Of a DNA stretch of 35,013 bases, positions 30,513-35,013 are shown piece after piece (positions within the stretch are counted from its first letter, which is position 1; each line of letters starts with the position of its first letter). The stretch lies in assembly GCA_001829415.1 (NCBI GenBank), contig MIBE01000032.1, forward strand, positions 83,444-118,456, given 5' to 3'. The notes below the pieces were generated by a model. It was not told the origin of the DNA. It was given only the letters and a program-made list of their open reading frames with translations, and made no database searches. The translations under genes and the position numbers were made by a program. Source of the stretch: Spirochaetes bacterium GWF1_51_8. Lineage in GTDB: Bacteria > Spirochaetota > Brevinematia > Brevinematales > GWF1-51-8.

Positions 30513-30548
30513 GGCTGGTGAAACCTCCAAAGTGATTTATAGCCAATC

Positions 30549-30577
30549 AGTATAACTATAAAAGAATAATCTGTCAA
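30549..30577 (-). promoter_or_regulatory. rpsB-tsf promoter
   Basis: Minus strand TTGACA, a 17-nt spacer and TATACT, about 37 nt before the rpsB ATG. One of the best consensus matches in the window, fitting a highly expressed ribosomal operon. Confidence 0.85.
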
Positions 30578-30584
30578 ATAAGTG

Positions 30585-30960
30585 AAAAGTAAAAAGTGAC
30601 CCCTCGGCTTCGCTCGGGGCAAGCAACTGAAAAGTAAGAAGGGAGATGGGTTTCACGCGGATGCTTCGGCTACGCCCCCGCTTTGCGAGGGCAGGCTCAG
30701 CACAAGGTACGCAGAGAGAAGAAGCATAGCTCCCTATGAAAGAGGTTTGAGTGTCTTTCTCTTTGTTCTCTGAGCGAACTGCCGGACATCGAGCGGAGCC
30801 GAGATGTCCGGTAAATCAGTGCAATCCGTGTTGAACTTTTGGTACGCGATAGTCGAACCATTGGGTACAGAAGCCGCTTATATTATCCCTATAGGACGCG
30901 GAAAACCCCCCTGTCATACTGAGCCTGCCGAAGTATGAGCCTGCCGGGCATATCCACATG
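30585..30960. repeat. Non-coding region with three GAGC-GCCGA hairpins
   Basis: No gene seen. The hairpins are CCCC/GGGG around a GAGCGAAGCCGA core on the minus strand (30600-30619), CCGGACATC/GATGTCCGG around GAGCGGAGCCGA (30782-30811), and CATACT/AGTATG around GAGCCTGCCGA (30915-30937). Between them are degenerate pieces of the same elements (30664-30700) and a TTTCACGCGG/CGCAGAGAG segment like the one at 11940-11975. It lies between the rpsB promoter and the end of the CHAT gene. Confidence 0.65.
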
Positions 30961-30971
30961 CTTATGCGAAC

Positions 30972-32189
30972 TCAGACTTTCCGAATATAATTGGTAAATA
31001 GACGGAAGAAGCTCGACAGCTTCGGGTCGATCAAGGACGAGATGATATACGAAAGTTCCGGGTTTTCCGGGCTGAAACAACGGTAGAACTTCAGGAAGCT
31101 GTATGCCGTATTGTCCGGGATATCGAACGGCGAGGCGATCACGTAATGCGCGCCCGAGGCGAGAAGATTTTCGACCATGCCCTGCGGTGTGAACCCTGTC
31201 TGACAGCAGTTCAGGACGGCGAGGCGCATATTCTTGACATGGGGCAGACGGTCGCTCCACCGTCCGTCGAACAACAGACACCCGCGCCCGTCGCGGATTT
31301 CGCCGTGGCCGTTATAATGGAAATAGTTCGCGGCGGCCAGCTCGTCCTGGTACTCCCGGAATGTGTTCTCCGGGTAGCTCTCGAGCTTGTAGGACGCGCG
31401 AAGGTAATCGATCAGTTCGGCGGTCTCTTTCATCGCGTAGGTCAGTTCCTGCGAGTAGACCAGCGTGAACGAACGGTTCTTCTTGAGGAAACTCCTCCGT
31501 TCGCCGGGGATCAGATTACGGATAAAACATTCCGGGAAAAGGATTTCGAGCGGGAAGAACGGGTAATTGCCGCCTGCGTCCGGCTCGTAGTACGCGTCGA
31601 TCTTCCGAAACGAGATATCGCTCGTGAACGGTAAAGGCAGGGCGGAGGCGGCCCTGTGGAGAGGCTCGAAGATGCGGGAATAGTCGGGGTCGGGATTTGT
31701 CCGGAGCTCGTTATTGATATCGTTCAATGTCCCGATGATCTCGTCGGCGAGATAGGCGAGGTCGCGCCGTGAGAAGACGGTGCGCTCATAGAGCAGGTTG
31801 AGCGGATCGGTGTAGGTCAATCCGAGAGAGTCGCCGTCCCATGAGAAATACAGACCGATCGCGGGAAGTTCGCGGGTGTCGTTGAGGCGGACCAGCCTGT
31901 TCAGGAAGGTCTTCTCGAAAGTGAACGCCGGGTGACGGCAGAAAAGGGTTTCGATGATTTCGGCGGACATCCGGTAGGTCTTCACGGGCGATACTGGAAA
32001 ACCCGTGCCCTTACGGCCGGGCCCGCCTGTCAGCTCGACAAGCGCGGCGGCTTCCTTCACGGGATCGAAGTAGGCGATCCGGTTATTCCGCCCCATCTTC
32101 TCGATCAGCGGAAGCGCGGACTGGGCTGGGATTTCGAGGCGGCCGCCGTTCAGGTTCGCGACACCCGCCTTCAGGAACAGCATCGGCAT
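30972..32189 (-). CDS. CHAT-domain caspase-like protease
   Basis: 405 residues from the ATG at 32189. The C-terminal half is a CHAT domain, a caspase-like cysteine protease fold: NYFHYNGHGE with the probable catalytic His295, then MRLAVLNCCQTGF with the probable catalytic Cys329, GMVENLLASGAHYVIASPFDIPD and FLKFYRCF. Both dyad residues are present, so it may be active. The N-terminal half is unique to my eye, possibly a partner-binding region. No signal peptide, so cytoplasmic. Its start overlaps the upstream gene's stop by one base (TGATG), meaning translation is coupled. Last gene of the four-gene operon with a UPF0182 membrane protein. Substrate unknown; bacterial CHAT enzymes often act in defence or controlled proteolysis. 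Confidence 0.85.
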   Translation of the reverse strand: MPMLFLKAGVANLNGGRLEIPAQSALPLIEKMGRNNRIAYFDPVKEAAALVELTGGPGRKGTGFPVSPVKTYRMSAEIIETLFCRHPAFTFEKTFLNRLVRLNDTRELPAIGLYFSWDGDSLGLTYTDPLNLLYERTVFSRRDLAYLADEIIGTLNDINNELRTNPDPDYSRIFEPLHRAASALPLPFTSDISFRKIDAYYEPDAGGNYPFFPLEILFPECFIRNLIPGERRSFLKKNRSFTLVYSQELTYAMKETAELIDYLRASYKLESYPENTFREYQDELAAANYFHYNGHGEIRDGRGCLLFDGRWSDRLPHVKNMRLAVLNCCQTGFTPQGMVENLLASGAHYVIASPFDIPDNTAYSFLKFYRCFSPENPELSYIISSLIDPKLSSFFRLFTNYIRKV

Positions 32190-33100
32190 CAGTTTTCCGG
32201 CTTGACTACGATTATCTGCGCTTGCTTGAGGCACTTTACCGTCAGCGGGTTTGCCATGATCTTCGCCGCGTCCTCGTTATGGATCACGAGGTCGGTGCCC
32301 ATCTTGCCCTTGACCTCGATCGGCATGATATAGAGAATCTTCGTCCCGGAGCGCGCGGACTTGAACGCGTAAGTGAGGCTCGTCGTGAACTCGCAGATAC
32401 CCTTGTCGGTCAACGCCTTCTTCTCGACGATTTCCGGCCCGTAAATCAGCCGTCCGTCCTGGTCGTATATCCGCATCTCGATACTGGGATTGAATTCTTT
32501 GAAGATCAGCGTATCGATGATGATGCTGTCGTAGTACTCCGCCATCTTCGAGGACGGGTAGTTGGTCGGGAGCGCCATATTCTCGATATCGCGGTAGAAC
32601 AAAGTCGCGAGACCGTTTTTACCGTAGAGCGCGAGTTCGGCGATACCGTGAAACTGGTTTTTCTTCTGCACCGGCGGGTAGTAGAACGCGCTGTCCACAC
32701 GGTCGATGATCTCGAAACGGATATCGTTCTTCTGGGAGTAATAGTCTTTCAGGCTGAATATCGCAGAGATACGGAGATAGCCCAGCGCCTTGATCAGGTT
32801 CTGACGGAGCAGCTCGCGGATTTCCTGAGAGTACTGGCTGAATAACTGGCCGATATTCGGATTGTCGAACTTGATCGGCAACGCGATCTCGGTGCGGACC
32901 TTGCCGGTCGTCCAGTTGATCATACTGCTGTAGGTGTCGATCTTCTCGACAAGTTCGTGCGAGGTGATCTCGTTCTTCGTCCAGAAAAAGTTCGGGTCGA
33001 AATTTGCGGACGCGATGGCGCCGACGAGGTTCCAGCAAAAAAGGATGATGCCGGAAAGGATCAGGAAGCGTTTTGCATGCGCGCGGTTATTTTTTTCCAT
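32189..33100 (-). CDS. Exported LPP20/FlgT-like protein
   Basis: 303 residues from the ATG at 33100. An N-terminal hydrophobic segment (about 11-31) is a signal or anchor, with AIASA as a likely cleavage site. The C-terminal part, from YYDSIIIDTLIF through RIYDQDGRLIYGPEI to TDLVIHNEDAAKI, follows the pattern of LPP20/FlgT-type envelope proteins. The middle domain is beta-rich and not recognised. The longer frame to 33385 is an arginine-rich artefact overlapping the previous gene. It overlaps that gene by 14 nt and the CHAT gene by 1 nt. Expected in the periplasm or outer envelope. Confidence 0.75.
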   Translation of the reverse strand: MEKNNRAHAKRFLILSGIILFCWNLVGAIASANFDPNFFWTKNEITSHELVEKIDTYSSMINWTTGKVRTEIALPIKFDNPNIGQLFSQYSQEIRELLRQNLIKALGYLRISAIFSLKDYYSQKNDIRFEIIDRVDSAFYYPPVQKKNQFHGIAELALYGKNGLATLFYRDIENMALPTNYPSSKMAEYYDSIIIDTLIFKEFNPSIEMRIYDQDGRLIYGPEIVEKKALTDKGICEFTTSLTYAFKSARSGTKILYIMPIEVKGKMGTDLVIHNEDAAKIMANPLTVKCLKQAQIIVVKPEN

Positions 33101-33503
33101 TTTTCTTATCAGTCCCCTGCGATTTGGATTTCGAGGAGCCGACGATATCTTCCATCGAGAGTGTGACCGGTTTCCATTCCTTGAAATTCGCCTGGGACGC
33201 TTCCGTGCTTTCGATCTTCTCAGCCTGGACTTCCGCCGCCTTTTTGTCGCCCTCGAGCAGCATATGGATAGTGAGCGCGGCCTTCTCGGCAAACTCGTCC
33301 ACTTTCCGCTGGTATCCCGCCTTCTTATAGAGCTTGATCGCGGATACCTGCTGTTTTTCCTCGTAGTACAAGTGGTCTGCCACACGGATTATACCGTCGC
33401 GGTAATCCGTGGCGAGGAAAATTTTAAGCGCGTTGCGGTGATCGCCCCTGTTGAAAAGTTCGTTACCCTGTCGGATCAGATTGATCCGGTCTTCATCGGT
33501 CAT
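33087..33503 (-). CDS. Small helical TPR-like protein
   Basis: 138 residues. Residues about 4-75 look like two or three TPR-like helix pairs (LIRQGNELFNRGDHRNALKIF, then a HLYYEEKQQVSAIKLYKKAGY pair), often used for protein contact. The rest is charged and disordered, ending GTDKKNGKK. No signal, so cytoplasmic. It lies between the UPF0182 gene (6 nt gap) and the LPP20-like gene (14-nt overlap). It may be an adaptor for the CHAT protease; this is inference. Confidence 0.7.
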   Translation of the reverse strand: MTDEDRINLIRQGNELFNRGDHRNALKIFLATDYRDGIIRVADHLYYEEKQQVSAIKLYKKAGYQRKVDEFAEKAALTIHMLLEGDKKAAEVQAEKIESTEASQANFKEWKPVTLSMEDIVGSSKSKSQGTDKKNGKK

Positions 33504-33509
33504 ACTTAC

Positions 33510-35013
33510 CTACTCGACAAAATTAGCGGCCTTTTTTAACTCCTCTCCTAATTTATCGACAGTTTCCTGATAAGCTTTTAGGTTTCCGTCTAATCTTAAT
33601 TGCTCTATTTGCAGGTACAGCCCGTAAGAATTCCGGATCATCTGGGTCATCGTCGCGATCATGAATTCCTGCTCGTCCGACGGCTGGTATCCGAAGATTT
33701 TCTTCAGGATGTCGTCGAACGAGTCCGCGATATAGACCTTTCCGTCGAGGATCGCGATCAGCTTTACGAGCTGGGGTATCCCCGCGCTTTCGGCCTCGAG
33801 GAAGATCGGCTTGAGATAGAGGATTTTATTCCCAAATGGGATGAACTGGATATTGCCGCGGAATATTTTCGAGCCCTTCTGTCCCCAAAGGGTCAAGAGG
33901 CGCGACATCTCGTCGTCCTGGTTGATGAGAGATTCTACCTGTAACGGCCCCAGCGAACTGGACGTTTTATCAAGATACTTCAGCGACAGCTTGGGACCGT
34001 TGTCGTAGTACGCGATAAACCAGCTTACGAGGTTCTCCTTTTTGACCGGGGTGAACGGGTGAATGAGCGAGAAACGAAGATTGTCGTCCGCCCGGTAGAG
34101 GATGAAATACGGCTTGAAGAGGCTATTCGTCGCGCCGTAGATCTGCTCGGGGATTTTCCACACGTCTTCGCCGTTGTAGAAGCTCTCGCTGTTCTCGACA
34201 TGGTAGTTGCAGAGTACTTTCGACTGTATCTCGAAGAGGGTGGACGGGTAACGGAAATGCTCCTCGAAGTCGGTAGGTATTTCCTCGCGGAAGAGCTCCG
34301 GGAAGAGGAAAAGGTACGCCTGCGCGATCGGGTCGGACTTATCGACTATATAATAGAAGACGTCGCCAGTGTAAGCGTCGATCACGACCTTCACGGAATT
34401 GCGGATGTAGTTGATGCTCCCGAACATCGTCTCGAATCGTTCGGAGATTGGGAAGCGGTCGGACACGGTGTAGGCGTCCATAATCCAGTAGAGCTTGCCC
34501 TTGACCACCGCGATATAGGGATCGTTGTCGTACTCGAGGTAGGGGAAGATGATCCGCACCCGTTCGTTGATCTCGCGGTGATAGATCAGGACGGAGTTGG
34601 AAACGATATATTTCGTCCAAAAAATCATTTTTTCGTTGAGGACGGTGCTGAAAATGAGCTTGGAGAAGAAATCGCCTATCGGGATACCCCTTTCTGCGGA
34701 ATAGACGGTCGTGATGCGGTTCGTGTCCGAGCTGTACTCGAACTCCTCGGCGAGGGTCTTGACGATGATATAGTTGCTGGTAAGTTCCCCGAAGTATATC
34801 TGCGGCAATGTGACCGCGAGATTCGAATAGGACGCGGTATTCTCGAGGTCCTTGATCCAGAACACCGGCTTGCCCTGCGGGTCGACAAGATTTGCCGGGG
34901 ACATCGTCAGCCCGAAACCGTGAGTGTAGCGCAGGTGGATATTGTCCCATGTGAACGCGTCGGCGGGAAGGTTGTTCAGGTTCAGTTCGCGGGCGGAAAG
35001 CACCACCTGGTAG
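33510..35013 (-). CDS. UPF0182 membrane protein, C-terminal part
   Basis: The frame is open to the right edge, so the N-terminus lies outside; the GTG at 35006 is an internal codon. About 500 visible residues begin YQVVLSARELNLNNLPADAFTWDN and continue IHLRYTHGFGLTMSPANLVD, which is the hallmark of the large extracytoplasmic region of UPF0182. Full-length members are near 900 residues, with about seven N-terminal membrane helices. Function of the family is not established. The protein should sit in the inner membrane with the visible half outside the cytoplasm. It leads the operon with the small helical, LPP20-like and CHAT genes. The end is TAG/TAA-type at 33510. Confidence 0.85.
   Translation of the reverse strand, partial: YQVVLSARELNLNNLPADAFTWDNIHLRYTHGFGLTMSPANLVDPQGKPVFWIKDLENTASYSNLAVTLPQIYFGELTSNYIIVKTLAEEFEYSSDTNRITTVYSAERGIPIGDFFSKLIFSTVLNEKMIFWTKYIVSNSVLIYHREINERVRIIFPYLEYDNDPYIAVVKGKLYWIMDAYTVSDRFPISERFETMFGSINYIRNSVKVVIDAYTGDVFYYIVDKSDPIAQAYLFLFPELFREEIPTDFEEHFRYPSTLFEIQSKVLCNYHVENSESFYNGEDVWKIPEQIYGATNSLFKPYFILYRADDNLRFSLIHPFTPVKKENLVSWFIAYYDNGPKLSLKYLDKTSSSLGPLQVESLINQDDEMSRLLTLWGQKGSKIFRGNIQFIPFGNKILYLKPIFLEAESAGIPQLVKLIAILDGKVYIADSFDDILKKIFGYQPSDEQEFMIATMTQMIRNSYGLYLQIEQLRLDGNLKAYQETVDKLGEELKKAANFVE

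Follow-up and report, generated by a model that had tools for sequence, protein, structure and literature searches.

The TPR-CHAT protease of Craspase (Csx29, type III-E CRISPR) carries a His-Cys dyad (H585/C627) and is encoded together with partner proteins, and the substrates of CHAT proteins are commonly encoded nearby (PMC9729208). CHAT-domain proteins encoded in the gene context of ECF54 sigma factors have also been proposed to regulate these through proteolysis (PMC8999054). Among envelope proteins, Treponema pallidum Tp0624 (PDB 5jir) consists of a D1-D2 unit followed by a C-terminal OmpA-like domain (D3), and the consulted sections of PMC5104382 do not mention CHAT in connection with it. 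The family UPF0182 (COG1615) appears in the literature in passing mentions, and no functional study of it was found.

Here, relatives of these proteins were analysed in a gene cluster that lies in a 35,013-nt stretch of the genome of Spirochaetes bacterium GWF1_51_8 (contig MIBE01000032.1, positions 83,444 to 118,456; hereafter the window), and the cluster was compared across 13 Brevinematales genomes from four families (f1 to f4), of which f1 holds the genus of the window. The core of the locus is a two-gene unit coding for an exported Tp0624 D1-D2-like protein and a cytosolic caspase-like CHAT protein, a predicted protease with a His-Cys dyad. In f1 and f4 this unit is apparently joined with a membrane module (a protein with two transmembrane segments, here termed two-TM protein, UPF0182 and a TPR-like protein) in one transcription unit. 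As in Craspase, a CHAT protein with such a dyad has co-encoded partners. In contrast to Craspase, however, the genes read in and near the operon include neither Cas7-11/gRAMP nor Csx30, no TPR domain was detected within the CHAT protein itself, the partners are envelope proteins and the inheritance is that of the core genome. The operon also differs from the DdvA and ECF54 loci, as it contains no sigma or anti-sigma factor gene. A first-pass annotation of this DNA had stated that no described system with this gene set was known, and we likewise found no paper describing the set.

Organisation of the gene cluster

The genes are arranged on the minus strand in the order two-TM, UPF0182, TPR-like, LPP20-like and CHAT (Table 1). 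The first-pass annotation had described a four-gene operon. Re-computation reproduced the four genes and their positions, the 6-nt gap between the UPF0182 and TPR-like genes, the 14-nt overlap between the TPR-like and LPP20-like genes and the 1-nt overlap between the LPP20-like stop codon and the CHAT start codon (TGATG), as well as the numbering of His295 and Cys329, which is counted from the ATG at 32189. Yet the set proved to be larger: a fifth gene, encoding the two-TM protein (272-277 aa), is situated beyond the edge of the window, 4 nt upstream of UPF0182 and in the same orientation, and the UPF0182 gene itself is cut by the window. Its N-terminal half with seven transmembrane segments is located at L002:6426-7586, on the other side of a short run of Ns. 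Since this run lies inside the gene (window position 35013; near position 6457 of L002), the gene is divided by an assembly gap.

Table 1 Features of the gene cluster in the window. The table indicates the feature, its position in the window, the strand and remarks.
Feature	Position	Strand	Remarks
UPF0182 (PF03699), C-terminal ~498 residues	33510..35013	-	large non-membrane domain, predicted outside
TPR-like cytosolic protein, 138 aa	33087..33503	-	spirochaete-wide family
LPP20/Tp0624-like exported protein, 303 aa	32189..33100	-	N-terminal hydrophobic export segment, then Tp0624 D1-D2-like domains
CHAT (caspase/separase-like) protein, 405 aa, cytosolic	30972..32189	-	ATG at 32189
Predicted catalytic His295 codon, HG motif	31305..31307	-	
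Predicted catalytic Cys329 codon, NCC motif	31203..31205	-	relatives NSC, HCC or HSC

All four f1 genomes have a sigma-70 promoter matching the consensus at 12 of 12 positions (TTGACA-16-TATAAT) upstream of the two-TM gene. In the window's genome, rpsB, which is located downstream of CHAT, has a separate promoter-like site (11/12). The compact five-gene layout, the consensus promoter upstream and the separate site of rpsB make the cluster look like one transcription unit, whose five genes would be co-transcribed. The intergenic region between CHAT and rpsB (window 30531-30971) contains a dispersed repeat, CTGAGCCTGCCGAAGTATG, of which 17 copies were found in the genome at up to two mismatches and none in the reversed control. 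Upstream of the operon (L002:9895-11133), three tandem small genes resemble those for Hsp20-type small heat-shock proteins, and relatives of these genes adjoin the operon in other f1 genomes as well.

The CHAT protein

The CHAT protein of the window matches the Pfam family PF12770 with an E-value of 1e-4 and 22.2-22.3 bits, which is under the gathering score of 24. It is clearly homologous to two relatives that exceed this score, those of genome G003 (25.8 bits) and genome G005 (32.5 bits); the CHAT proteins of f2 and f4 that were scanned gave no Pfam CHAT match by themselves. His295, Cys329 and Glu255 are invariant in all 11 rows of the alignment, which share 17-68% identity with the window protein, and the His/Cys dyad is also present in the CHAT proteins of G002 and G012. 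The first-pass annotation had described an intact His-Cys pair and had made its reading depend on the conservation of both residues in homologues; the pair is intact and invariant in all 13 of them. Conservation is low in the N-terminal part of the protein, which shares 11-25% identity with the other families. In the window copy, no transmembrane or export segment was detected by hydropathy.

Searching solved structures by sequence returned nothing for CHAT. In a fold search, ranks 1-14 were taken by the Craspase TPR-CHAT protease, and the transmembrane anti-sigma factor DdvA (PDB 8rw5, 8rot) followed at ranks 16 and 18 with E-values of about 0.02; because the query model is of low confidence (pLDDT 56), these matches are suggestive at most. 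A literature search for DdvA yielded no paper that treats it as a CHAT protein. Taken together, the protein is a weak but real CHAT-domain protein and a predicted His-Cys protease.

The exported protein and the membrane module

The LPP20-like protein matches the D2 domain of Tp0624 in a sequence profile comparison (E=4.8e-8) and D1-D2 by fold (E=3e-15, TM-score 0.68), and is the D1-D2 unit of that protein. Unlike Tp0624, it ends after the D2-like region without an OmpA-like D3 (no Pfam OmpA match) and is paired with a CHAT protein. One LPP20-like relative, at L069, does contain OmpA. To Helicobacter Lpp20 (5ok8) there is a weak fold match (E=0.08). Neither the window protein nor any of 11 LPP20-like members matched Pfam LPP20 (PF02169), and a search with the alignment yielded nothing useful; the only relative to pass the gathering threshold, and this just barely, stems from Desulfobacterales. 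In a Desulfobacterales MAG (L053:1129-8801), a cluster encodes more than one exported protein similar to the LPP20 family, and no CHAT gene was seen there.

UPF0182 was the only protein of the operon named by NCBIfam. It is a full-family match in Pfam (E=1e-135; 454 bits compared to a gathering score of 27), and hydropathy revealed seven hydrophobic segments in the N-terminal half and none in the C-terminal half. A search of 60 genomes found relatives in 28. The TPR-like protein has a marginal Pfam match to TPR, and the two-TM protein is predicted by hydropathy to consist of two transmembrane segments followed by a cytosolic part. Searches of solved structures by sequence returned nothing for UPF0182, TPR-like or two-TM. 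The topology guessed in the first-pass annotation agrees with the hydropathy profiles, which predict seven transmembrane segments and a large outside domain for UPF0182, a cytosolic location for the TPR-like and CHAT proteins and export of the LPP20-like protein. That annotation had further regarded the two small proteins as possible parts of a candidate protease system. They are not dedicated to such a system, because both families are spirochaete-wide (TPR-like in 179 of 198 genomes, LPP20-like in 332 of 393 sampled genomes) and mostly occur without a linked CHAT gene.

Distribution and linkage in Brevinematales

All 13 Brevinematales genomes contain both the LPP20-like and the CHAT gene; named relatives are MAGs designated Brevinematales bacterium and Spirochaetes bacterium GWF1_49_6. 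The two genes are adjacent and co-oriented in 12 genomes, and in the thirteenth (G002) the contig stops inside the start of CHAT, directly after the LPP20-like gene. This pair is the tightest unit of the cluster. The complete five-gene order is intact in seven genomes (G000, G001 and G003 of f1; G006, G009, G011 and G012 of f4), to which G002 (f1) adds an eighth that is split at the contig end. Neighbouring genes of the five are spaced by -14 to +40 nt, and LPP20-like and CHAT overlap by 1 nt in both f1 and f4. In f2 the set is divided into two-TM–UPF0182–TPR-like and LPP20-like–CHAT, while in f3 only LPP20-like and CHAT remain together.

The first-pass annotation had proposed a search for co-occurrence of UPF0182 and CHAT, and would have given up its reading if they were neighbours in this genome alone. 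The five-gene order in two deeply divergent families bears out the association for f1 and f4. UPF0182 is not obligatory, however: the CHAT pair stands without UPF0182 beside it in five of the 13 genomes, and in two families UPF0182 lies elsewhere. Nor is the membrane arm always complete, since no UPF0182 gene was detected in G008 and no two-TM gene in G005. Elsewhere in the phylum there are UPF0182 genes to which no CHAT gene is linked, and the linkage of UPF0182 to the two-TM and TPR-like genes was seen in Brevinematales only. Outside the order, neither the inspected Spirochaetota loci nor two loci from Desulfobacterota showed a link between LPP20-like and CHAT genes. As the LPP20-like and TPR-like families are phylum-wide, the CHAT gene and its pairing with the LPP20-like gene are an order-specific addition.

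Around these genes, f1, f2 and f4 have no other neighbours in common in the 19-kb stretches compared, so that the linkage is not leftover synteny. In the family tree the groupings f1+f4, f2+f3 and f1+f3 were all not rejected, and f1+f2 was marginally rejected. On this tree, a five-gene order that is ancestral and one that was joined twice are not distinguishable; either reading speaks for a functional tie.

Selection and alternative explanations

All five genes are under purifying selection, with dN/dS values mostly between 0.06 and 0.17 (in f1, 0.10-0.17 for CHAT and 0.06-0.16 for two-TM, UPF0182 and LPP20-like); one higher value, 0.22 for TPR-like, was obtained between two near-identical copies (dS 0.09). 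This pattern disfavours the role in phage defence for which the first-pass annotation had proposed a challenge assay. In such a system, directed against phage or serving programmed cell death, CHAT would kill the cell on a membrane signal. From Craspase, CHAT is known as an effector domain in defence (PMC9729208), and the two-TM protein has a weak PADLOC match to a SLATT-type model (E=0.002), which we read as a chance two-TM resemblance. In contrast, the PADLOC models did not match CHAT, LPP20-like, TPR-like or UPF0182, and the CHAT gene is single copy in the window's genome, occurs throughout the order and adjoins the housekeeping genes rpsB-tsf-pyrH in f1. These findings make defence very unlikely, and the cluster is better assigned to core envelope biology. 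It is also improbable, if less so, that the CHAT protein has no proteolytic role and serves as a scaffold or as a regulator of envelope genes, with its His and Cys being structural. The divergence of its N-terminal part would agree with such a role, and catalysis is so far a prediction, but the invariance of both dyad residues even in very divergent homologues fits catalysis better.

A more serious competitor, albeit one we consider somewhat unlikely, holds that the LPP20-like/CHAT pair is the whole system, that is, a protease with a secretory partner, acting for example in quality control or processing of this partner before export, and that the other genes are mere operon neighbours from a separate membrane module. 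The persistence of the pair alone in f2 and f3 speaks for this, as do its own promoter-like element in f2 (9/12), the existence of two-TM–UPF0182–TPR-like as a three-gene module of its own in f2 (L080, L081, L082) and the position of the TPR-like gene next to a folD-like gene in f2 and f3. However, two deep families share the same arrangement of the joined modules, and neither its retention since the common ancestor nor a double joining is likely without a functional benefit.

Proposed function and implications

We prefer, though tentatively, to see the cluster as a vertically inherited, conserved envelope-protease operon of Brevinematales, which would encode an envelope-reporting protease with periplasmic input and CHAT cleavage as output. 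The LPP20-like protein and the outside domain of UPF0182 would report the state of the periplasm or envelope, and the membrane proteins, together with the cytosolic TPR-like protein, would keep CHAT inactive or activate it. Once active, CHAT may then cleave a target in the cytosol, perhaps the TPR-like protein or the region of the two-TM protein on that side of the membrane, and this cleavage could change envelope maintenance. As in the sensor-to-protease path suggested by the first-pass annotation, the direction of the signal, the physical contacts, the protease activity and the substrate are inferred. Since CHAT is predicted to be cytosolic and the LPP20-like protein to be exported, direct contact between the two would need something that crosses the membrane; the lack of a membrane gene co-encoded with the pair in f2 and f3 counts against the proposed path.

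Links between CHAT and the envelope may be more general in Spirochaetota, as CHAT/amidase pairs and a CHAT protein with a membrane segment occur in other lineages. In family f14, CHAT adjoins a gene for an N-acetylmuramoyl-L-alanine amidase (Amidase_2) in both genomes inspected (L097:3148-5503 in G119; L098:4191-6522 in G026), with an overlap of 8 nt in one of them. The CHAT protein with a membrane segment is encoded in G021 (L100:1708-5655), where its gene clusters, in the same orientation, with two unassigned genes and the gene for an ECF-type sigma factor. Apart from these, of the five genomes of one family in the same class, one (G014) carries a lone, distant homologue that is CHAT-like and shows the motifs SSHA and NNC (L096:4336-5433).

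It would go further to regard the operon as a new form of transmembrane signalling, an envelope-stress pathway in which a caspase-like protease in the cytosol is switched on by the state of the periplasm as read by the Tp0624-like protein and UPF0182. We rate this as unlikely at present; if true, the pathway would provide the first functions for UPF0182 and the Tp0624 D1-D2 unit. Their association with a protease dyad already offers a testable handle on these two conserved families without known function, and the presence of the D1-D2 unit in most sampled Spirochaetota genomes (see above) lends this broader relevance. Should the proposed path be real, a caspase-like protease would serve the homeostasis of the envelope in a double-membraned cell, and not defence.
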